From positions 124,001 to 188,000 of the forward strand of contig JAQGEQ010000137.1 in the NCBI GenBank assembly GCA_034620365.1: a stretch of 64,000 nucleotides of DNA, written 5' to 3'. Under the pieces are notes generated by a model that saw nothing but the letters and a program-made list of their open reading frames with translations, made no database searches and was not told where the DNA came from. Position 1 is the first letter of the stretch. The number at the start of each line of letters is the position of its first letter. Position numbers and translations under genes: made by a program. The DNA is from Pegea sp. RAD2-039 (taxonomy: Eukaryota > Chordata > Thaliacea > Salpida > Salpidae). Below are positions 1 through 45,250 of the stretch, one piece after another.

Positions 1-1196
1 ATACATCAGTTGATGCCACAGTAAGATCAACAAAACTTCTCAAAGTTAAAATCTCATAAATGTATTAGCTTCCTAGTAGAGCTCTTGAATTCATCTTTGC
101 AAAAATGATATTTGATGCTGCTGGGAACGCAAGGTCACCTCCTGATACAATTTTACATGATCCCATATCTCCTCCGACAAGAATCGAATGGAATCTTGAT
201 AAACTTCAAATGGAGTCTTTTAATATTTATCAATCTCAGCATATGCAACAAGTAGTGACTAGCAGTTGTGTGTATCATCACCTACTTCTTATATTTCTTC
301 AAATTTTAGGCAAGTAATCTAGACCTGGTTGCTTTGAAGTTAAACTCTGGTAAAGGAGAGATAAAAAAGCTCCGAGTTAGTCCTGATAGTTTTGTTCAAA
401 TGGCTCTGCAGTTGGCTTTTTTTAAACTTCATCAAAGTACTCCAAAGACTTATGAAACTGCAATGACCAGGTAAAGATCATCACATAATCTTCTCACTTC
501 TAAGACTATATTTGAAGATTTTTCAAATTTGGAAGGACAGAAACTATCAGAACAGTTTCCAAACATTCAGTTCGTTTCACAAAAGTAAAATGATGGAACT
601 AAACTTCAAAATACTAACCAACTTTTCTTACAGAGTATGACAGATCCAACAAAGTCTAATGAAGAAAGACTGAAAGCTCTAAAAGACGCGATGAAGTATC
701 ATAATAACTACAAATTGGATGCTATGAGTGGGAGAGCATCTGACAGAACGTTGTTTGGATTAATGGCTGCCTCTAAACTAACTAATCTTGAAAAACAACC
801 AAAGTTATTTGACTTACCAGTAAGAATTATACTTTTTAATATATCTCTATCTGATTAAATATTCATCAAAAGGAGATTAAAAGTGGAGATCAGTTATCTA
901 CATCTCAGTCACCATTCGTTTTCGACCAAAAATTATCAAAACAAATGAAAGTGTACCCAGCTGGTGGTATTTTTTCACCTCAAACCACCGATGGGTATGG
1001 AGTCTATTACATATTTCTTGGTGAAAATAATAGTAAGTTGAAATTAAAGTTTGATATTTGGTAATTTGGAAGATTATTTGCAGTGAATATTCACATCAGT
1101 TCTTATCGATGTCATCCAGAAAGTAGCTCCGAAAAATTCGGGAAAGCTCTTCAAGACTCTATGGATGAAATCAAAGAATTACTGAGGAGCACTTAA
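1..1196 (+). CDS. Carnitine/choline acyltransferase family, C-terminal part (carnitine O-acetyltransferase-like)
   Basis: Transfers acyl groups between CoA and carnitine in mitochondria or peroxisomes. The gene is cut by the left edge. Visible exons are about 104-229 (start uncertain), 310-474, about 475-590 after a short intron, 634-819, 853-1033 and about 1082-1196, ending at TAA 1194-1196. The joined reading gives the family order: [18 protein letters not shown], then TYETAMTR, then FGRTETIRT (the conserved carnitine-binding T-E-T segment), an [11 protein letters not shown] region, the LSTSQ active-site neighbourhood (S-T-S), and DGYGVYY. The catalytic histidine lies upstream of the window. 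The tail EIKELLRST lacks a clear peroxisomal SKL signal. Whether it is CRAT, CROT or CPT-like cannot be decided from the C-terminus alone. Exon borders are approximate. Confidence 0.88.
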
Positions 1197-3000: not shown

Positions 3001-5812
3001 CTAAACATATTCGATTGGATCAAATTCCAAATACATTCGGTAGTCATAAGGAGCACCATGCCTGTTAGGAAGCTCATTTCTATGTGCTTTGTATTTCTGT
3101 AGAAGCAAATATAAGTTTAGAGGAACAAAAGTCTTGATGCTGTTACTTACATATGGTGAGACGTAGGCATCCCAATCTCGTACACCAGAATGACCACCAA
3201 CTGCTGACATGTTATCCGTCTAAAACAAATATAGATAAAGTTCAGCAAAAATCAGAAGGAAAAATGAAATTATCATGACTACTTACAGCTGTTTTCACTT
3301 TTAGATGATATCTGGCCATTTCTGGAGGAATAAAACCCTGTTTTGTCAGCTTAACCTGGCGAGTTGGTCCATCGTAACTTATATTTCTAAATCCAGATTT
3401 ACGTGATGGCCTTAGTTTCCTGGTAGCCACAGCTGTGGAGCCTTTTCTCGATCCCTGAGAAGATCTTCTTCTTTCTTCTTCAGCTCGTGTAGCATTAGAA
3501 AATCTTCTTTCTTCTTCAGCTCGTGTAGCATTAGAAGCTCTTCTTTCTTCTTCAGCTCGTGTAGCATTAGAAGCTCTTCTTTCTTCTTCAGCTCGTGTAG
3601 CATTAGAAGCTCTTCTTTCTTCTTCAGCTCGTGAAGCATTAGAAAATCTTCTTTCTTCTTCAGCTCGTGTAGCATTAGAAGCTCTTCTTTCTTCTTCAGC
3701 TCGTGTAGCACTAGAAGCTCTTCTCTGTTCTTCAGCTCGTGTAGCATTAGAAGCTCTTCTTTCTTCTTCAGCTCGTGTAGCATTAGAAGCTCTTCTCTGT
3801 TCTTCAGCTCGTGTAGCATTAGAAGCTCTTCTTTCTTCTTCAGCTCGTGTAGCATTAGAAGATCTTCTTTCTTCTTCAGCTCGTGTAGCATTAGAAGCTC
3901 TTCTTTCTTCTTCAGCTCGTGAAGCATTAGAAGCTCTTCTTTCTTCTTCAGCTCGTGTAGCATTAGAAGCTCTTCTTTCTTCTTCAGCTCGTGAAGCATT
4001 AGAAGCTCTTCTTTCTTCTTCAGCTCGTGTAGCATTAGAAGCTCTTCTTTCTTCTTCAGCTCGTGTAGCATTAGAAGCTCTTCTTTCTTCTTCAGCTCGT
4101 GTAGCATTAGAAGATCTTCTTTGCTCTTCATGTGTATCATAACACGTTACTTCATTTTCTTCAACATTAGAACGCCTGGACCCTTTTCTTGACCCTTGAT
4201 TAGATCCAGCAGAAGCTCTTCTTTGATCTTCAGCTCGTGAAGCAGCAGATCCTCTTCTACTTTCTTCTTCGACTGCATGATGAGGTATTACTTCGTCTTC
4301 ATGGTGATTAGAACGCCCAGAACCCCTTCTTGATCCCTGATTAGATCCAGCAGAAGCTCTTCTTTGATCTTCAGCTCGTGAAGCAGCAGATCCTCTTCTA
4401 CTTTCTTCTTCGACTGCATGAAGAGGTACTACTTCGTCTTCATGGTGATTACAACGCCCAGAACCTCTTCTTGATCCCTGATTAGATCCAGCAGAAGCTC
4501 TTCTTTGATCTTCAGCTCGTGAAGCAGCAGATCCTCTTCTACTCTCTTCTCCGACTGCATGAAGAGGTATTACTTCGTCTTCATTGTGATTAGAGCGCCC
4601 AGAACCTCTTCTTGATCCCTGATTAGATCCAGCAGAAGCTCTTCTTTGATCTTCAGCTCGTGAAGCAGCAGATCCTCTTCTACTCTCTTCTTCGACTGCA
4701 TGATGAGGTATTACTTCGTCTTCATTGTGATTAGAACGCCCAGAACCTCTTCTTGATCCCTGATTAGATCCAGCAGAAGCTCTTCTTTGATCTTCAGCGC
4801 GTGAAGCAGCAGATCCTCTTCTACTTTCTTCTTCGACTGCATGAAGAGGTACTACTTCGTCTTCATGGTGATTAGAACGCCCAGAACCCCTTCTTGATCC
4901 CTGATTAGATCCAGCAGAAGCTCTTCTTTGATCTTCAGCGCGTGAAGCAGCAGATCCTCTTCTACTTTCTTCTTCGACTGCATGATGAGGTATTACTTCG
5001 TCTTCATGGTAATTAGAGCGCCCAGAACCTCTTCTAGACCCTTGATTAGATCCAGCAGAAGCTCTTCTTTGATCTTCAGCTCGTGAAGCAGCAGATCCTC
5101 TTCTACTTTCTTCTTCGACTGCATGAAGAGGTACTACTTCGTCTTCATGGTGATTAGAACGCCCAGAACCTCTTCTTGATCCCTGATTAGATCCAGCAGA
5201 AGCTCTTCTTTGATCTTCAGAGCGTGAACCAGCAGATCCTCTTCTACTTTCTTCTTCGACTGCATGAAGAGGTACTACTTCGTCTTCATGGTGATTAGAA
5301 CGCCCAGAACCTCTTCTTGATCCCTGATTAGATCCAGCAGAAGCTCTTCTTTGATCTTCAGCTCGTGAAGCAGCAGATCCTCTTCTACTTTCTTCTTCGA
5401 CTGCATGATGAGGTATTACTTCGTCTTCATGGTAATTAGAGCGCCCAGAACCTCTTCTAGACCCTTGATTAGATCCAGCAGAAGCTCTTCTTTGATCTTC
5501 AGCTCGTGAAGCAGCAGATCCTCTTCTACTCTCTTCTTCGACTGCATGATGAGGTATTACTTCGTCTTCATGGTAATTAGAGCGCCCAGAACCTCTTCTA
5601 GACCCTTGATTAGATCCAGCAGAAGCTCTTCTTTGATCTTCAGCGCGTGAAGCAGCAGATCCTCTTCTTAATCCTTGTTCAGAGTTAACAGAGGTTCTTC
5701 TACTTTCTTCAATAGCCGCTGTGGATGATTTAATTTCATTTTCTTTAAAATGAGATCTTTTTCGATTTTTTTCACTGCAATCAGCAGGTTGATCAAATTC
5801 TTTAACAGCCAT
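3001..5812 (-). CDS. Giant R-R-x-S repeat protein with the same C-terminal module
   Basis: The long first exon runs from the ATG at 5810-5812 to the donor after KVKTA near 3293. Exons about 3155-3219 and 3001-3095 follow, ending at TAG 3001-3003, for about 890 residues in total. After an N-terminus rich in K, E and S there are 11 copies of a 46-residue unit (RRGSAASRAEDQRRASAGS, then NQGSRRGSGRSN, then an acidic/His stretch EDEVIPHHAVEEES). These are followed by 18 copies of a 12-residue unit, RRASNATRAEEE. R-R-x-S is the consensus for PKA-type kinases, and it occurs more than 50 times. The C-terminal module matches the neighbouring gene at 2289-2661. The protein is predicted to be disordered, with alternating basic and acidic patches, and cytosolic. 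An acceptor-like T-rich stretch ending in AG lies 24 bases before the ATG. Function is unknown. A ciliary or cytoskeletal scaffold is a guess. Confidence 0.82.
3459..4127 (-). repeat. 36-base coding minisatellite, about 18 units
   Basis: Tandem 36-base units encode RRASNATRAEEE. They differ by point changes (NAT/NAS, EEE/EEQ, RAS/RSS/RFS). The homogeneity shows recent slippage or unequal exchange. The unit length is a multiple of three, so other frames also stay open. Confidence 0.95.
4165..5670 (-). repeat. 138-base coding minisatellite, 11 units
   Basis: Tandem 138-base units encode the 46-residue R-R-x-S module. Two alternating subtypes are visible (VIPHH and VVPLH, with YHED, HHED or HNED). 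The last unit, next to the 36-base array, is divergent. Near-identity between units indicates ongoing homogenisation. Confidence 0.95.
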
Positions 5813-6331
5813 TTTTAAGGACAGGTAAACAATTAACTAAAAAAATATAAACACAAATAACAAAGCTAACACCTGAAAAACAATACTTAATAGATTAAAC
5901 TGTAGAAATGGCGAAATATTTTTACTAGACAGAATTTGATTTAAAAACTTCAGTTATATTCGTAGTATAAAACAACAACAGATTTACTTAGTTGCACGTC
6001 AAATAAAAACACATAAATAATTACATACTGAATATGAAAAGGTGGATAACAGAGATATAGAATTGAACTTTATAAAAATGCTAAGTAAAAGAAAAATAGA
6101 ATCTCAATTCAAAAAATTGTAAAAAAATACGGTATGATTCTATTTTTCACATTTTATTGGCACAATACAAAGACTACACGATTTTACAAGTTCCAATCAA
6201 AACCAATTTGCTGCAAGTTCAAGAATCTAAAGATCATATCAATTAGTTAGACTCTGGACAACTCTGAAATTGAACAGTTAATCTGGCATAGAATCAATTG
6301 GACACACCTTCTGCTTGAACTGTCTAACCCA
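5813..6331. other. Intergenic spacer
   Basis: About 520 AT-rich bases holding the presumed 5' region of the repeat gene and the 3' UTR of the next minus-strand gene. I see no gene or RNA signature. Confidence 0.55.
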
Positions 6332-7228
6332 TTATGGGCGAAAATACTTATGATCATTGCGGTCTTGAGATTCCCTTCTAGGTACATAGAATCGATCAGG
6401 CTCACAATTTCTGCAAGCATTATACCCCTACAATTGAGGAAATTGATTTAAAGAGTTGAGTCATTGGATATGAACATACATGAGGATTGTGATGATCATA
6501 TTCCTTCTTACCACAACGTTTATGAACAGCAGAAAAATCCAATCTCTAAAATGAAGATACGATTTTATAATCTTATTATTAGCTGCTGGAAATATTTGGA
6601 CAGAATTCATTTGTGGCAACTGATTAATAAAGAAATAATTCCATAAAATTATTAAGTTGAGAATAAACTACAAAATAAAACGCTTTAAATCACCTCCACA
6701 AATTATTATCTTTTAAAAGTTTTAAGAAACAATATAAATAAATAAATTTGGAAAAACAAAAATTTCTAAAATAAATAATTTAGACTTACATTCATTAGTT
6801 ATATTTTGACATTAGCACAAACAAAAATTAATAATTAAGAAAACTGAAACTATATTTTGAAGTTTCCTCAAAGTTGTTGAGACTTTATATCAAAGCTAGT
6901 TGACTAGGAAAATTATCTACAAAAAACTCACTGATGTAGGTATTTTTTTTCCGTCTTTATCTATATTCATCGCAGACTGACAGCCCCAAATCTTTGAAAA
7001 CTCTTGAAAAGGTTCAGGATGAAATCTTTGAGAAAGAGCCACCTTTGGTAAGATTTGACTTACAGTGTAATGCGGTTTGGGATGCTGTGGATCATTTTGC
7101 TGACAATCAGCGTTCTCACAAGGAGGAGTTTCTTCTGTCAGTTGCTTTTTTAAGGCACTTAAACGCTTTTTATGTTCTGGGTTTGGTTGCTTTCCACTAG
7201 ATGATGAGTGGCCTGGTGTTTCATCCAT
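6332..7228 (-). CDS. Small cysteine/histidine-containing protein, unknown function
   Basis: I read four exons. The first (7228 to about 7064) runs from MDETPGHSSSSG through SALKKQLTEETPP to PENADC-like cysteines and KPHYT. The second lies near 6935-6980 (SAMNIDKDGKKIPTS). The third, about 6480-6545, encodes RLDFSAVHKRCGKKEYDHHN. The last, about 6332-6430, encodes GYNACRNCEPDRFYVPRRES and ends in DHKYFRP at TAA 6332-6334. The exons join in frame, but borders two and three are uncertain. The C-R-N-C pair and the H/D-rich stretch might bind metal. There is no signal peptide or membrane helix. It lies on the same strand as, and close to, the two module-sharing genes at 2289 and 3001, but does not clearly share their module. 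I do not recognise the family. Confidence 0.5.
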
Positions 7229-8971: not shown

Positions 8972-11536
8972 TTAGCTTGTGTAATTGTATCTTCCACCAG
9001 ATGAAAAACCACCTCTACCTTGCTGTCCACCAGAGAAAACACGGTCAAAATGTCCATCACCATAATGACTTCCACCACGACTCCACCGACTTTGACCTTC
9101 AAAAAGATTAAACTTTTCAAAAGTATTTAATAAAAGATTGATTGTCCAAATATTTGTATAATTTCAAAGTTGCAAATACCTCTGCCTCCTTGGGATTGGT
9201 TGTTGTATCCTCTGCCTCCTTGGGATTGGTTGTTGTATCCTCTACCTCCTTGGGATTGATTATTGTATCCTCTACCTCCTTGGGATTGATTATTGTATCC
9301 TCTACCTCCTTGGGATTGGTTATTGTATCCTCTACCTCCTTGGGATTGGTTATTGTATCCTCTACCTCCTTGGGATTGACTATTATATCCTCTACCTCCT
9401 TGGGATTGGTTATTGTATCCTCTACCTCCTCTGGATTGGTTGTATCCTGCAACAAAGAGGTCAAAATGAAATATTTTATTCAAGGGCACTTGACATGTCA
9501 ATTAGTACCAGTATTTTTACGACTTTGCCAACTTGGCATTTCAGGAGGCGGAGCATTCATCTCGTTAACTCTTCCTCCTCTATCAGGAACCTACAAGCAC
9601 AGAAATCAACGACTTGACACAATAGTGAGATCTTACTTTTCCCATTTTCACTTTATTGATCTTACACTTCTGAAGAGTGTCACCAGAAGAAGTTTTGGAC
9701 ATGTAAGCCAAATCTACAAGTTAAAAGATAACAGAAGTGATTTGTAGTTGAAACAACAACCTTCTCTTGCTGCTAACAAGTCAGCCATCTTCACTCCTGA
9801 CTCTACTTTCATCTGATGTCTCTTAGACTGATAGTTTGATGCAATTTCTTCAAAAGATTTCTGTACAAGTTTTACAAAGATTAAAAAATCAAGTTTGAAG
9901 CAATTAGCTGAAACCTTGGCTCGTTCAGACCAATTAAAAGAAGCAATCGTGACATCCAATCGTTTTAATAACATTTCTCGTCGAGCAGTATATTCTTGAG
10001 TCAAAGTTTTATGAATAATTTCAAGTTGTTTCCATTGATTTGTTGTTAATGGCTTTTTGATTATGGGGGCATTCCCTTTAGTAGGAGGAGGTAGATTTTC
10101 AGAAAGCTGAAATCAACAAAATGGTCAAATAATTTTTTGGATTCAAACTTTCTGGTGTTTTTCGAACCTTCTTTTTAAGAAAATGCAGATATGAATCGAC
10201 AGGTATGTTTGGAGGAGGTTCTTGCATATTTAAACTTATTCTGATTGAGTTTAAATACTCATAACAGTTACTTGTATCTTCATTATCTGAACTATCCTAG
10301 TTATGAAATATTTGAAATTATGATTGAAAAAGTGAAGTCTACTCACATACTTGAGAGTTTTTAAGATTTAAGTGTTTTGGATTTGAAGAAAAATATATTT
10401 TTGCGGCTTGAAGTTCAGTTGTAAGATAAACTGATAAAAACATTAAACAATTATCAAAAAAAAAACAATAAAAAATTCATACAGAGGAGTTTTAAACAAT
10501 CAAGTTTAGTTGATAATCTTTCATTTATATTTCCAGATTTTAGTGAATCATATGGACAACCATATTCTTGAAGAAAACCACTTAGTTCAAACTGGAAAGC
10601 TTCTAAATTATTTTCATCTAGATAAAGAAAAATGTTTATAAAGCAAGGTTTTTATTTGCAAGTAAACAAATAAATAATAAAATGTATGAAAGCTTTTACA
10701 AGTTTAACAGTTAATCAAGTTATAAAATAAAACTTATAAAAATCAAATAAAGTTTATATAAAGGTAAGTTCAAACCTGTAGATTGAACACAATCATCTAA
10801 ATTATAGAACAAAGCTAATTCAGTTGTTAAAACTGAAACAAGTTTTTTGAAATGATTAGATTTTATGCCTTCTTCTACAATTTTATCAAATGATTTGAAT
10901 ATAATGTTTGCTCCATCATACCTTAAAAGAAAGAGAAAAATTATGTTAATAATAATAATAGATATAAATAATATAAGGCAACTATCAAACTGTGTCAAGT
11001 TGTTAATAAATAAACACTTTAAAACATAGAAATTAAATTAACTCTAAAAAACTTCTCCAAGAAAATTAATATTTAAAAAAATATTTTTTTTAAATATTAC
11101 ATTGAGCAAAAAATCATGATTTTTATTAAATTGATAATTTGTTGATTTTAAATAAAACTATCAGTTGTAATAGCTTGAAATATTCATCAGCAATTTCTCA
11201 AATATTTCAGCTTAATTAAGATAAATACAAAATTTTATAACAGATTTATATAAAACCAAGAAAACTTTTTATAAACACAACTTTATAAAAAGTTCGGATT
11301 ATTATCAAGTTTACTGAATTGTTAACATTTATCAATTATAACACGCTAAAGATTTGATTACAAATTAGTTGATTCTAACAAACAATTTAAGTTTTAGCAT
11401 TTAAATTAAACTGGCAAAACATTTAATGGTTATAAAATAAGAATAAATCATGAAAATATATAAATCAAAATAGAGTTTACGAAACTTACTGAATATTTAA
11501 GTCTTCCAAAATATCTAAAATATCAAGTGAAGCCAT
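8972..11536 (-). CDS. FAM98: FAM98 family protein (tRNA-ligase-complex / RNA-binding, RGG tail)
   Basis: FAM98A/B are partners of the tRNA splicing ligase RTCB/DDX1 complex and bind RNA. The start is the ATG at 11534-11536 (MASLDILEDLNIQ). Later exons give YDGANIIFKSFDKIV, TTELALFYNLDDCVQST, FELSGFLQEYGCPYDSL and RLSTKLDCLKLL. Near 9930-10004 comes EYTARREMLLKRLDVTIASF with SWSERAK-like W-S-E-R-A-K, then YQSKRHQMK, ADLLAAREG, and PDRGGR...PPPEMPSWQ. All of these line up in order with animal FAM98. The C-terminus is a 10-residue repeat (GGRGYNNQSQ) followed by RGG-like glycine-rich sequence ending RYNYTS at TAA 8972-8974. Many introns are short. The segment between about 10000 and 10900 is read less securely. 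Confidence 0.92.
9178..9440 (-). repeat. 30-base coding repeat in the FAM98 tail
   Basis: Eight full 30-base units and one partial unit encode G-G-R-G-Y-N-N-Q-S-Q on the minus strand. The plus strand is also open by periodicity, but nothing supports coding there. Arg-Gly-Gly with Tyr and Gln is typical of RNA-binding, phase-separating tails in FAM98A. Confidence 0.93.
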
Positions 11537-13989: not shown

Positions 13990-18700
<4,711 letters not shown>

Positions 18701-34381: not shown

Positions 34382-37072
34382 TGCTACATTATAGCATCTT
34401 TCTCAACTTAGACACAAGCTTTAAAAACCAAACAATTTACCAACAAACAACTTTTATTGCAAAAATAATCAATTTGTAGATTTTAATCAAAACACTATAA
34501 AACTAAAACTATAAATCTGATTAGTAATATTCTTGTCGTCTTCTAATTGCCACTGAGTAAGTAAAGAGTATGGTTCTTAATTGTTATCATAATTACTCAA
34601 GCTACTACTGAGGCCATGAAACACTTCCTTAACGCGTTTCCGAAACAGCTTGTCACGGAATTGATAAATAAAAAAATTCCAAAAGCTGTTGTAACATAAG
34701 ATTATAAAGCAACAGTAACTTACATTAACAGCAATTCTTCCAGCATCTATATCCACCTCTTCTTTATCAAATCTATCTAAACTGCTTGATGAATACACCA
34801 CAAGACTAAAAATCGAAAGGGGCATCAAAGAAAACGTAAATGTTGCTGTCATTATCATTAAAGTTTTTGCAGCTTTTATTTCAACCGATCTTCTATTTTT
34901 CGGAGTTAACTTTTTCATCTTTTTTTGATGTTGTTTGATTTTTACCAATGTCGCAATACTTGATATCCATAAAAGACAAAAAGGTAAAGCCAAGAATAAA
35001 AACAGCATTAAGTATATATCTTGAGCAAAAAAACCTATAAAACTGCCGTACGCGACTTCGTATTCTACTTCATCACTTAGAATAGGGTATGCTGAGATCA
35101 AAATTGAACAAATCCAAACTAATGCACACAAACAAGTAGAAACTTTTACATTGAACCAAATGTGATACTTCAAAGGTTTACAAACAGCAACAAGACGATC
35201 AACACTTGCCATTAATAATGTATAAATGGAATTATCTAGACAAAATATGAGTAAGGATCCTGAGAAAACCATAAAGTCCTGTTTAAAAGGAAATTTTGGG
35301 CCCCTGCTGATTAGTGTACTAACTGAAATATTTGTAAAATTGTTGATAAAGAAGTTTTTGGCAAGATCGTCATTAAGATCATCAAACTGAAGATTTGCAA
35401 AAACATATTTTAACGATATCCAAATTGCAGTTGAAAATATAATAGTTCCTGATAGAAAATCCATGAAAGCTAAATTTGTTCTGTAGATATTCTGCATAGT
35501 TCTGAGTTTTGTAGATGTTAATATCACAACAATCACAAGCAAGTTAGGTAGAGATATTGCAAATATACTTATTCCATAAAACACATTCATGATAGTGTAA
35601 CTTGTTGAGCAACTGAAAATTGTATAATAATTATTCTATTATTCATATAATTACAAAATAATTTCAAATAAAACTTTATAATTTCAAAACACTAAATTAT
35701 GAATAACTTAAAAGCACTTTAAATAGATGATTAAATCATAAATTGAAATATAAATCCACAAAAAAGTAAATAAAACATTATTCAAATTTAATTTGATATT
35801 TAGAGTTGCACAAAATAAAAATTCCAATTTAGTTTATCAGATTTGTTGATAGTTAATTAAATTATTCTACTTATACCTGTCACTGGCGCAGAAAACAGGG
35901 GAAAGACGTTCTCGATGGTATCTATCAACACCACACCAAATTCCTCCACAAAAAGGTAAAAAAAAATCCTTCATTTCTTCAAACTCACCAAAACTATATC
36001 CTCTTTGAATAATGATATCATCATACAAAGCAACTTGGACACAAGGGTCTTTAAGATGAGTTTGAGACAAGTTGACGAGATCTGGAAGTAACAAGTCCCA
36101 ACTGGATTTGTTGGATTCTACTGATTCTTTAACTCTTTGAAAACACTTCTTAATAAGAAGATCTCTGTTACAAATCTGATCATAAATCAGTTCGGCGTAT
36201 TTTGTGTAAGAATAAGTTCGAAGTTGACACTCTTTCTGGAAATAGCGACAATCGAGTTTTTTTAAGATTTCTAAATAATTTGTGAGATAATAAGAACGAC
36301 GAAAGACTTTTTCACTGAATTCTTCCTCAACTTGTTGACAGAGATCTATTTTAAAACAATTCTATTTTCAAATAGAGTTTGAAAAGCTCAAAAATTAGAC
36401 AAAGTTTTTAAAACTACAATAAATAAAAGAATAGTTTAAGCTGAAATACTTTTATTTATAAATAAAACTTACCCGAGTTATTCAATCCTTCACAAACAGA
36501 AAAGTAACATAGAATGAAGATTAGAGATTTTATCAACATTTTTAAATGTAAGTGACCTGAAACTGTGAAAATAAAAGATGTTTTTGAAACTAAACTTTCA
36601 TCAAATATATGTCAGTCACAACATTAGATTTAAACGCGCAACTAAACCCGCTTATGAGTTGTAATATTTACAAAATTATTGATATTTATATGAAATCACT
36701 CAATAACTATTTCAATGTTTTATTAATTTTGATTTGGTGATTTAAAATCAACGTATTTACTGTAACGTATTTCCGCAAGTGATTAATAGTGAAGTTGTAC
36801 AAGTTTGCTGCAATCAAAGAGTTTCTGTGACTCGTTCATGATTACTAATCTTTGTATGCAGATAATCAACATAATCAAGTAATTTGTTTCACAAAAATGT
36901 TAATTTAAAGAGTTGTGATGTATGAAATAAGATAATGATTCAAAGTCAACTCATTTAACAATTATTTTTCTATCTGGTAGCAAATAGCAGCAATTATTTT
37001 CCTGAGTTTTCTCTGAATATCTTAACTAGATCACAGAATACTGGCTTTGAAGTTATTGAAATTTATTGTATG
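34382..37072. repeat. Segmental duplication unit A (holds GPCR A)
   Basis: Nearly identical, including introns and 5' flank, to 42559-45250, in the same orientation. The left edge is at a GCTACATTATAGC word that is flanked by a short palindrome here and by GC-richer unique sequence in the other copy. Confidence 0.95.
34577..36539 (-). CDS. Orphan class A GPCR with ten-cysteine ectodomain, copy A
   Basis: Exon 1 (about 36475-36539) encodes a signal peptide, MLIKSLIFILCYFSVCEG. Exon 2 (about 35870-36345) encodes an extracellular domain of about 160 residues. Exon 3 (34577 to about 35612) joins at phase 2 through SCSTSYTIMN to a seven-helix receptor; the ectodomain, counting this join, has ten cysteines. 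TM1 carries the N of SLPNLLVIVV; TM2 has LAFMDFLSG. After TM3 comes MASVDRLVAVCKPLKYH, so D-R-Y is D-R-L. TM7 has YNSFWNFFIY in place of NPxxY. A basic ICL3 (KKMKKLTPKNRR) and a short tail follow. The CWxP motif is absent. The ligand is unknown and G-protein coupling unproven. It differs from copy B mainly in TM3 and TM6-TM7. An acceptor-like TTTCAG lies 17 bases before the ATG. Confidence 0.88.
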
Positions 37073-42556: not shown

Positions 42557-42558
42557 CG

Positions 42559-45250
42559 CTACATTATAGCATCTTTCTCAACTTAGACACAAGCTTTAAA
42601 AACCAAACAATTTACCAACAAACAACTTTTATTGCAAAAATAATCAATTTGTAGATTTTAATCAAAACACTATAAAACTAAAACTATAAATCTGATTAGT
42701 AATATTCTTGTCGTCTTCTAATTGCCACTGAGTAAGTAAAGAGTATGGTTCTTAATTGTTATCATAATTACTCAAGCTACTACTGAGGCCATGAAACACT
42801 TCCTTAACGCGTTTCCGAAACAGCTTGTCACGGAATTGATAAATAAAAAAATTCCAAAAGCTGTTGTAACATACGATTATAAAGCAACAGTAACTTACAA
42901 TTAGAGCAATTTTTCCAGCATCTATATCCAAGTTTTCTTTATCAAATCTATCTAAACTGCTTGATGAATACACCACAAGACTGTTAATCGAAAACGGCAT
43001 CAAAGAAAACGTAAATGTTGCTGTCATTATCATTAAAGTTTTTGCAGCTTTTGTTTCAACCGATCTTCTATTTTTCGGAGTTAACTTTTTCATCTTTTTT
43101 TGATGTTGTTTGATTTTTACCAATGTCGCAATACTTGATATCCATAAAAGACAAAAAGGTAAAGCCAAGAATAAAAACAGCATTAAGTATACATCTTGAG
43201 CAAAAAAACCTATAAAACTGCCGTACCCGACTTCGTATTCTACTTCATCACTTAGAATAGGGTATGCTGAGATCAAAATTGAACAAATCCAAACTAATGC
43301 ACACAAACAAGTAGAAACTTTTACATTGAACCAAATGTGATACTTCAAAGGTTTACAAACAGCAACAAGACGATCAACACTTGCCATTAATAATGTATAA
43401 ATGGAATTAACTATACAAAATAGGAGTATGAATCCTGAGAAAACCATAAAGTCCTGTTTAAAAGGAAATTTTGGGCCCCTGCTGATTAGTGTACTAACTG
43501 AAATATTTGTAAAATTGTTGATAAAGAAGTTTTTGGCAAGATCGTCATTAAGATCATCAAACTGAAGATTTGCAAAAACATATTTTAACGATATCCAAAT
43601 TGCAGTTGAAAATATAATAGTTCCTGATAGAAAATCCATGAAAGCTAAATTTGTTCTGTAGATATTCTGCATAGTTCTGAGTTTTGTAGATGTTAATATC
43701 ACAACAATCACAAGCAAGTTAGGTAGAGATATTGCAAATATACTTATTCCATAAAACACATTCATGATAGTGTAACTTGTTGAGCAACTGAAAATTGTAT
43801 AATAATTATTCTATTATTCATATAATTACAAAATAATTTCAAATAAAACTTTATAATCTAAAAACACTAAATTATGAATAACTTAAAAGCACTTTAAATA
43901 GATGATTAATTCATAAATTGAAATATAGATCCACAAAAAAGTAAATAAAGTATTATTCAAATCTAATTTGATATTTAGAGTTGCACAAAAAATGAAAATT
44001 CCAATTTAGTTTATCAGATTTGTTGATAGTTAATTAAATTATTCTACTTATACCTGTCGCTGGCGCAGAAAACAGGGGAAAGACGTTCTCGATGGTATCT
44101 ATCAACACCACACCAAATTCCTCCACAAAAAGGTAAAAAAAAATCCTTCATTTCTTCAAACTCACCAAAACTATATCCTCTTTGAATAATGATATCATCA
44201 TACAAAGCAACTTGGACACAAGGGTCTTTAAGATGAGTTTGAGACAAGTTGACGAGATCTGGAAGTAACAAGTCCCAACTGGATTTGTTGGATTCTACTG
44301 ATTCTTTAACTCTTTGAAAACACTTCTTAATAAGAAGATCTCTGTTACAAATCTGATCATAAATCAGTTCGGCGTATTTTGTGTAAGAATAAGTTCGAAG
44401 TTGACACTCTTTCTGGAAATAGCGACAATCGAGTTTTTTTAAGATTTCTAAATAATTTGTGAGATAATAAGAACGACGAAAGACTTTTTCACTGAATTCT
44501 TCCTCAACTTGTTGACAGAGATCTATTTTAAAACAGTTCTATTTTCAAATAGAGTTTGAAAAGCTCAAAAATTAGACAAAGTTTTTTAAACTACAATAAA
44601 TAAACGAATAGTTTAAGCTGAAATACTTTTATTTATAAATAAAACTTACCCGAGTTATTCAATCCTTCACAAACAGAAAAGTAACATAGAATGAAGATTA
44701 GAGATTTTATCAACATTTTTAAATTTAAGTGACCTGAAACTGTGAAAATAAAAGATGTTCCTCAAACTAAACTTTCATCAAATATATGTCAGTCACAACA
44801 TTAGATTTAAACGCGCTACTAAACCCGCTTATGAGTTGTAATATTTACAAAATTATTGATATTTATATGAAATCACTCAATAACTATTTCAATGTTTTAT
44901 TAATTTTGATTTGGTGATTTAAAATCAACGTATTTACTGTAACGTATTTCCGCAAGTGATTAATAGTGAAGTTGTACAAGTTTGCTGCAATCAAAGAGTT
45001 TCTGTGACTCGTTCATGATTACTAATCTTTGTATGCAGATAATCAACATAATCAGGTAATTTGTTTCACAAAAATGTTAATTTAAAGAGTTGTGATGTAT
45101 GAAATAAGATAATGATTCAAAGTCAACTCATTTAACAATTATTTTTCTATCTGGTAGCAAATAGCAGCAATTATTTTCCTGAGCTTTCTCTGAATATCTT
45201 AACTAGATCACAGAATACTGGCTTTGAAGTTATTCAAATTTGATTTTAGT
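42559..45250. repeat. Segmental duplication unit B (holds GPCR B)
   Basis: Near-identical to 34382-37072, in direct orientation about 8.2 kb away. Differences are scattered single bases in introns and flanks, but clustered within two coding segments of the receptor. Confidence 0.95.
42752..44716 (-). CDS. Orphan class A GPCR with ten-cysteine ectodomain, copy B
   Basis: The exon plan is the same as copy A: signal peptide exon (start ATG 44714-44716), ectodomain exon (about 44045-44522) and seven-helix exon (42752 to about 43787). The aligned part of the ectodomain (75 C-terminal residues) is identical to copy A at protein level. The receptor exon differs at about 16 residues, most of them in two clusters: TM3 (SGFILLFCIVN here, SGSLLIFCLDN in A) and the end of TM6 through ECL3 to TM7 (PFSINSLV and NLDIDAGKIALIVS here, PLSIFSLV and EVDIDAGRIAVNVS in A). 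D-R-L and NSFWNFFIY are as in A. No stops or shifts are seen, so both copies look functional. Confidence 0.88.

Follow-up and report, generated by a model that had tools for sequence, protein, structure and literature searches.

Between positions 5812 and 3001 of the 64,000-nucleotide stretch of Pegea sp. RAD2-039 DNA analysed here (contig JAQGEQ010000137.1, positions 124,001 to 188,000; hereafter the window, to which all coordinates refer), two adjoining minisatellites encode a protein in which the basophilic-kinase consensus R-R-x-S (RRxS) recurs in almost every unit. The locus raises the question whether these sites serve to tune the charge of the chain by phosphorylation, or whether they were carried along by the expansion of a coding repeat.

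Gene model and repeat units

The array gene lies on the minus strand (5812-3001) and has a well-supported structure of three exons, whose spliced product is 896 amino acids long. Exon 1 (5812-3287) extends from the ATG to a GTAAGT donor in phase 0 and encodes the N-terminal tail, both arrays and the start of a C-terminal module. Exon 2 (3219-3151), which is bounded by splice sites, encodes the middle of the module (TDNMSAVGG...YVSPY), and exon 3 (3096-3001) encodes its end (KYKAHRNELPNRHGAPYDY...EYV, then the stop). The related protein P0008 (see below) is co-linear with exon 1 and reads across both splice junctions with no intron in between, giving the same spliced reading across exon 2. When a more distant relative, P0003, was compared with the genome, it matched the exon 1 part at 3275-3403 (E 5e-6) and the exon 3 part at 3025-3117 (E 5e-8); the exon 2 part gave a weak match (3136-3222, E 0.156), which contains a stop and runs into the intron. 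A sequence-only reading of this DNA had assigned both arrays to one protein spanning 3242 to 5812. The single open frame from the ATG at 5812 through both arrays bears this out, and the high end of the span is correct. The low end is not: 3242 sits in intron 1, at the point where the open frame stops when the intron is read through.

The N-terminal tail (aa 1-46, 5675-5812) contains one RRxS, at aa 38. It is followed by array 1 (4124-5674), which consists of 11 units of 47 aa (141 bp), holds 32 RRxS and is a moderately blocky polyampholyte with a His/acidic spacer, and by array 2 (3473-4120), which consists of 18 units of 12 aa (36 bp) with the consensus RRASNATRAEEE, holds 18 RRxS and is predicted to form a long single helix. 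The first part of the C-terminal module (SRKSGFRNISYDG...KVKTA) is encoded at 3287-3406; all these features are on the minus strand. The unit sizes first proposed were right for array 2 (18 x 12 residues) and one residue short for array 1, where 11 x 46 had been given. Two further frames of the 36-bp array are open as well, 3412-4146 on the minus strand (244 residues) and 3459-4142 on the plus strand (227 residues), because its unit length is a multiple of three and the unit is free of stops in those frames.

The initial impression of more than 50 sites agrees with the count of 53 RRxS in the whole protein (25 RRAS, 21 RRGS, 3 RRSS, 2 RRFS, 1 RRTS and 1 RRRS), whereas 1000 shuffles of its residues averaged 4.1 such sites and never gave more than 12. 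The PKA substrate consensus R-R-x-S/T is thus present at 53 sites. The best PKA substrates typically have a hydrophobic residue at P+1. Such a residue occurs at 1 of the 53 sites of the window protein and 1 of the 11 sites of P0008, the P+1 position being mostly occupied by Ala, Asn or Gly, and this preference of PKA is not seen in the array.

The unit copies match at 95%, which indicates strong homogenisation; the eleventh (last) 47-aa unit is divergent and carries one RKGS. The 12-aa unit is similar to the first part of the 47-aa unit (RRGSAASRAEDQ), and the DNA of array 2 matches four stretches wholly inside array 1 at 66-68% identity. The RRxS sites are therefore mutually dependent. The high similarity of the copies and the kinship of the two arrays are consistent with a neutral coding minisatellite, in which a short unit that held RRxS from its founding multiplied in frame within a disordered tail that tolerated it, and recent homogenisation hides the decay. 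Two further in-frame minisatellites with units that are multiples of three, in open frames at 9179-9441 and 18436-18654, and the absence of the array from six members of the protein family (see below) point the same way, whereas neutral expansion accounts less well for a frame of about 2.2 kb in which there is no stop or frameshift. A DNA search with the 36-bp array beyond the array gene, in which simple repeats were skipped, gave one match, of 46 bases, on another contig. The array protein gave three weak matches to other contigs (L017, L018 and C1:623910), and on the strand read there was no open frame with at least two RRxS in L017 or L018.

An array-bearing relative and the retention of RRxS

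P0008, recovered with a protein-collection query of a longer length class, is an array-bearing orthologue of 291 residues with 11 RRxS, encoded by a 1084-base contig that probably derives from spliced RNA. It starts with the same 20 residues as the window protein, and 39 of the 46 residues of the N-terminal tail are identical between the two. Both arrays are present in short form, with three 12-aa units; the copy number and the units themselves differ from those of the window protein. The shortness of the P0008 array could be due to assembly collapse.

Retention of the consensus was assessed by comparing units of both proteins. The 47-aa set comprised ten units of the window protein and two of P0008, the diverged eleventh window unit being left out; among these 12 units 14 positions vary, and none of them belongs to the nine R/R/S positions of RRxS (P 0.028). 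In the 12-aa set (18 units from the window protein, three from P0008) four positions vary, again none at the three R/R/S positions (P 0.25). Over all 33 units there are thus 18 variable positions with none on R, R or S, giving a product P of about 0.007, which is not independent and is optimistic because the units share common descent; as they are recent copies, few independent changes lie behind the test. The x position does vary, being A, G, S, F, T or R in the window protein and G, S, T, N or D in P0008.

The sparing of R, R and S at all variable positions in two proteins, and the preservation of array architecture and flanks in P0008, argue against neutral expansion. The silent changes show no clear excess specific to the coding frame, as neutral expansion would have it. 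In array 1, 7 of 19 changes are silent against 5.0 expected; without the first-unit boundary the figures are 7 of 15 against 3.9 (P 0.043), but an antisense frame of the same array gives 8 of 15 against 4.8 (P 0.045); in array 2 the count is 1 of 6, with 1.1 expected. With an antisense frame scoring equally well in array 1, the coding frame is not distinguished by this test. On the whole, we regard neutral expansion as a strong rival explanation of the arrays, if less likely than not.

A different use of the sites could be imagined from the residues that follow them. The motif of CK1 is pS-x-x-S/T, and that of CK2 is S/T-x-x-E. The residue at +3 after the RRxS serine is S or T at 51 of 53 sites in the window protein and 11 of 11 in P0008, counts that are not independent because every copy inherits the spacing; RRxSxx[ST]xx[DE] is found at 29 of 53 and 6 of 11 sites, respectively. 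In spacing, and in spacing only, this corresponds to the Ci/Gli type, in which a PKA site has a CK1 acceptor at +3. Such a pattern would suit a hierarchical phospho-site array, primed by a basophilic kinase and then phosphorylated at the +3 residue by CK1 or CK2, that acts as a degron or as a binding site of graded strength; in Ci, phosphorylation by PKA primes for GSK3 and CK1 (PMC8855225). However, Ser-rich repeats easily yield a +3 Ser, and the protein has no DSG motif, which makes a hierarchical array very unlikely. Zinc fingers like those of Gli were looked for, and at E up to 1 Pfam gave no match to a zinc-finger family.

The C-terminal module and its family

The module comprises the last 94 residues of the array protein. 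It had been described beforehand as small and conserved, and this proved to be so: it has kin in an adjacent paralogue, to which it is 45% identical in the alignment, and when aligned with the proteins P0001-P0006 it fits the family core TA...D[WF]DAYVSPxKYKAxxNxLPxxxGAPYD. The paralogue (2661-2289, minus strand; exon 1 2661-2542, exon 2 2486-2289) encodes 105 aa with the module and no array, and its first intron is at the same place as that of the array gene. Genome searches with three protein queries found the module only in these two adjacent genes. A possible small three-exon gene on the same strand, at 6331-7228 upstream of the array gene, ends in ...GYNACRNCEPDRFYVPRRESQDRNDHKYFRP; its splicing was read by eye, and Pfam gave no match for its first open frame.

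Searches of protein collections yielded eight related proteins, P0001-P0008. P0001 is a close relative of the paralogue (93% identical over 82%). The six relatives P0001-P0006 are without an array, although the length limits of the searches would have hidden members with long arrays. P0007 (87 aa), a relative of the paralogue (E 1.4e-3), diverges straight after the conserved TA, which looks like intron read-through and thus suggests that the position of the intron is conserved. P0007 was dropped before an unrooted tree of nine sequences was built. In this tree the adjacent paralogue groups with P0001 and P0002 (support 0.995), and the array gene with P0008 (0.985); P0003-P0006 belong to neither group (supports 0.84). 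If the paralogue group is taken as outgroup, the other side holds P0003-P0006 together with the array gene and P0008. In five of these six proteins the stretch directly preceding the module has a Ser with a basic residue three positions before it, as in RRFSFDG, KKFSFDG, KKYSFDG, FRNISYDG and FKNISFDG; P0005 is without the stretch.

An HMM search of the module, which had been suggested as a check, was run against Pfam and gave no family above the cut-off for the module or its relatives. The matches below the cut-off belong to unrelated families, the best being HMUDK_HMUD1 for P0005 (E 0.0063), and a match of exon 1 to Plasmodium HRP (E 2.4e-4; 21.4 bits, cut-off 45.8) was judged to reflect low complexity. 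Sequence searches of the PDB with the module and its profile found no match at E up to 10; a designed helical repeat in the PDB was considered as a relative of the paralogue (E 0.35) and rejected. AlphaFold2, supplied with the alignment of six relatives, modelled the module with a pLDDT of 46.8, too low for structures to be compared by fold. We propose that a small protein with the conserved C-terminal module gained a tandem array N-terminal to it; the array would have grown and homogenised as a coding minisatellite, with the basophilic-kinase consensus kept in nearly every unit.

Charge pattern, predicted helix and possible phosphorylation

The whole protein has 175 R/K and 158 D/E, and the array region 150 and 140, respectively, a net charge of +10 that would be -96 by computation if all 53 serines carried a phosphate of charge -2. 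The proposal of a repeating plus/minus polyampholyte with a switchable charge is thus supported as far as near-neutrality and the computed change of sign are concerned; as a description of one uniform chain it needs refining, since the two arrays differ in pattern. Charge patterning in array 1, which is Gly/Ser-rich, is blockier than chance (0.091 against 0.060 in shuffled sequences, sd 0.007), whereas array 2, a well-mixed E/R/A repeat, is more mixed than chance (0.032 against 0.075, sd 0.015). Acidic blocks between the sites are accordingly a property of array 1 and not of array 2. The abundance of Arg and Ser, with 39 SR and 15 RS dipeptides, might suggest an arginine-rich nucleic-acid-binding or RS-like protein, but the acidic residues balance the charge and there is no RRM or other Pfam domain above the cut-off, which renders this idea most improbable.

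In array 2, 85 of the i+3/i+4 charge pairs are favourable and none is unfavourable; with the RRxS serines scored as acidic the numbers are 121 and 15. In charge pairing the 12-aa unit scores only marginally above shuffled units, of which 6% do as well (P 0.064). For array 1 the corresponding pairs are 84 favourable and 16 unfavourable. A single-sequence AlphaFold2 model of residues 505-842 alone (338 residues) has one helix, predicted for aa 560-783, i.e. 224 residues or about 34 nm if straight. The pLDDT is at least 90 at 173 of the 338 residues, and over model residues 71-250 its means for blocks of ten residues are 90-98; confidence is low for the included part of the module and for the last 47-aa unit, in which the model draws a questionable short helix. 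Charged repeats are easily drawn as helices by structure prediction. Since array 2 is well mixed and modelled as one helix, the 'switch' that had been envisaged may here mean tuning of a helix or of charge rather than a disordered kinase sponge. The 34-nm length is not conserved, because P0008 holds only three 12-aa units.

SAH/ER domains, such as those of myosin VI and Drebrin, are long charged stretches with i+3/i+4 pairs (PMC12203971). Array 2 resembles them in both respects, including the predominance of favourable pairs, and it is plausible that the predicted helix would be held by E-R pairs in the same manner; it differs in its strict 12-residue repeat, in having a kinase consensus per unit and in that its helix is known from prediction alone. 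The charge pairing and the modelled helix, together with the scarcity of V, I, L, M, F, Y and W (45 of the 754 residues of the array region), would also suit a constitutive charged spacer or single alpha-helix, in which the role of Arg and Glu is to form salt bridges and provide length, and phosphorylation has no part. We consider this unlikely, as it leaves unexplained the retained Ser at P0 and S/T at +3, and likewise the Gly/Ser-rich array 1 with its unfavourable pairs.

The best reading of the locus, quite possible though short of probable, is a multi-site charged spacer or helix tuned by phosphorylation. It is favoured because the 12-aa unit repeats the geometry of the basophilic-kinase site of TACC3. 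The TACC3 study (PMC5897774) reports that phosphorylation of S558, an Aurora-A site flanked by Arg at P-3 and by a basic residue at P+4, extends a helix, that the P-3 Arg staples the helix after phosphorylation and that mutation of the P+4 Lys has a negligible effect; its authors expect such stabilisation to recur with basophilic kinases. A basic residue at +4 (RRxSxxx[RK]) is found at 30 of 53 sites in the window protein and 6 of 11 in P0008. In contrast to the many tandem sites with few hydrophobic residues seen here, TACC3 has one site and one helix, which shows hydrophobics to clathrin. A second point of comparison is provided by designed coiled coils with RRxS in helical peptides: PKA acts on these assemblies, and phosphorylation disassembles the helices instead of stabilising them (PMC10127268). 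As the TACC3 helix displays hydrophobics nearly absent from the array, and the designed coils disassemble, phosphorylation of the array could act in either direction. Also counting against the phosphorylation-tuned reading are the rarity of hydrophobic P+1 residues, the short array of P0008 and the two other minisatellites in open frames of the window.

According to the phosphorylation-tuned reading, array 1 would be a flexible, near-neutral polyampholyte and array 2 a long single alpha-helix based on E-R pairs, the two acting as a spacer presumably anchored by the C-terminal module. A putative kinase, probably basophilic, that acts on RRxS could add up to 53 phosphates, so that a nearly neutral array became strongly acidic, and the phosphates might re-pair the array 2 helix through the Arg residues at P-3 and P+4. 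A more specific version, which we put forward as a rather improbable one, is a natural phospho-helix of variable copy number: tandem 12-residue RRxSxx[S/T]R units, carried by an undescribed small protein family, in which minisatellite copies would set the length and a basophilic kinase would set stiffness and charge site by site.

Several known systems are similar in part. The neurofilament-H KSP tail is a long polyampholyte and contains tens of repeats that can be phosphorylated; the window protein, unlike it, has 0 KSP and no intermediate-filament domain in Pfam. The Ki-67 repeats shift their charge pattern on phosphorylation (PMC9106583), as may be the case here; they are hyperphosphorylated in mitosis, whereas the window protein has 1 [ST]P in all, and therefore no array of proline-directed sites. 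CotG and CotB of the Bacillus spore coat have serine-rich repeats phosphorylated by the kinase CotH (PMC7821199); they differ in their bacterial origin and in the kinase.

Phospho-controlled repeat tails and single alpha-helices are kinds already known, whereas a literature search limited to titles and abstract openings, with subscription journals mostly outside it, found no described tandem RRxS array of this size on such a module; within that scope the early claim that the layout belongs to no described family stands. If the array is phosphorylated, it would be a natural graded charge rheostat that arose when one kinase site was duplicated in tandem, and it would put to the test, in nature, the idea from TACC3 that phosphorylation by basophilic kinases can stabilise helices (PMC5897774). 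Since the family includes proteins with no array, a short array and a long array, the effect of the number of sites can be examined directly.

Some other features of the window were recorded. The minisatellite at 9179-9441 (minus strand) has a 30-bp unit and encodes RGG-like YNNQSQGGRG repeats in an open frame without a Pfam match, and that at 18436-18654 (plus strand) has an 18-bp unit and encodes an acidic Ser/Thr repeat of the (HSETEV)n type at the end of an open frame. An exon matching choline/carnitine acyltransferase is located near the array locus, at 589-855 (plus strand). Two duplicated segments about 8.2 kb apart, at 34383-36361 and 42558-44538, contain nearly identical frames for a rhodopsin-type GPCR (7tm_1; one copy was scanned).
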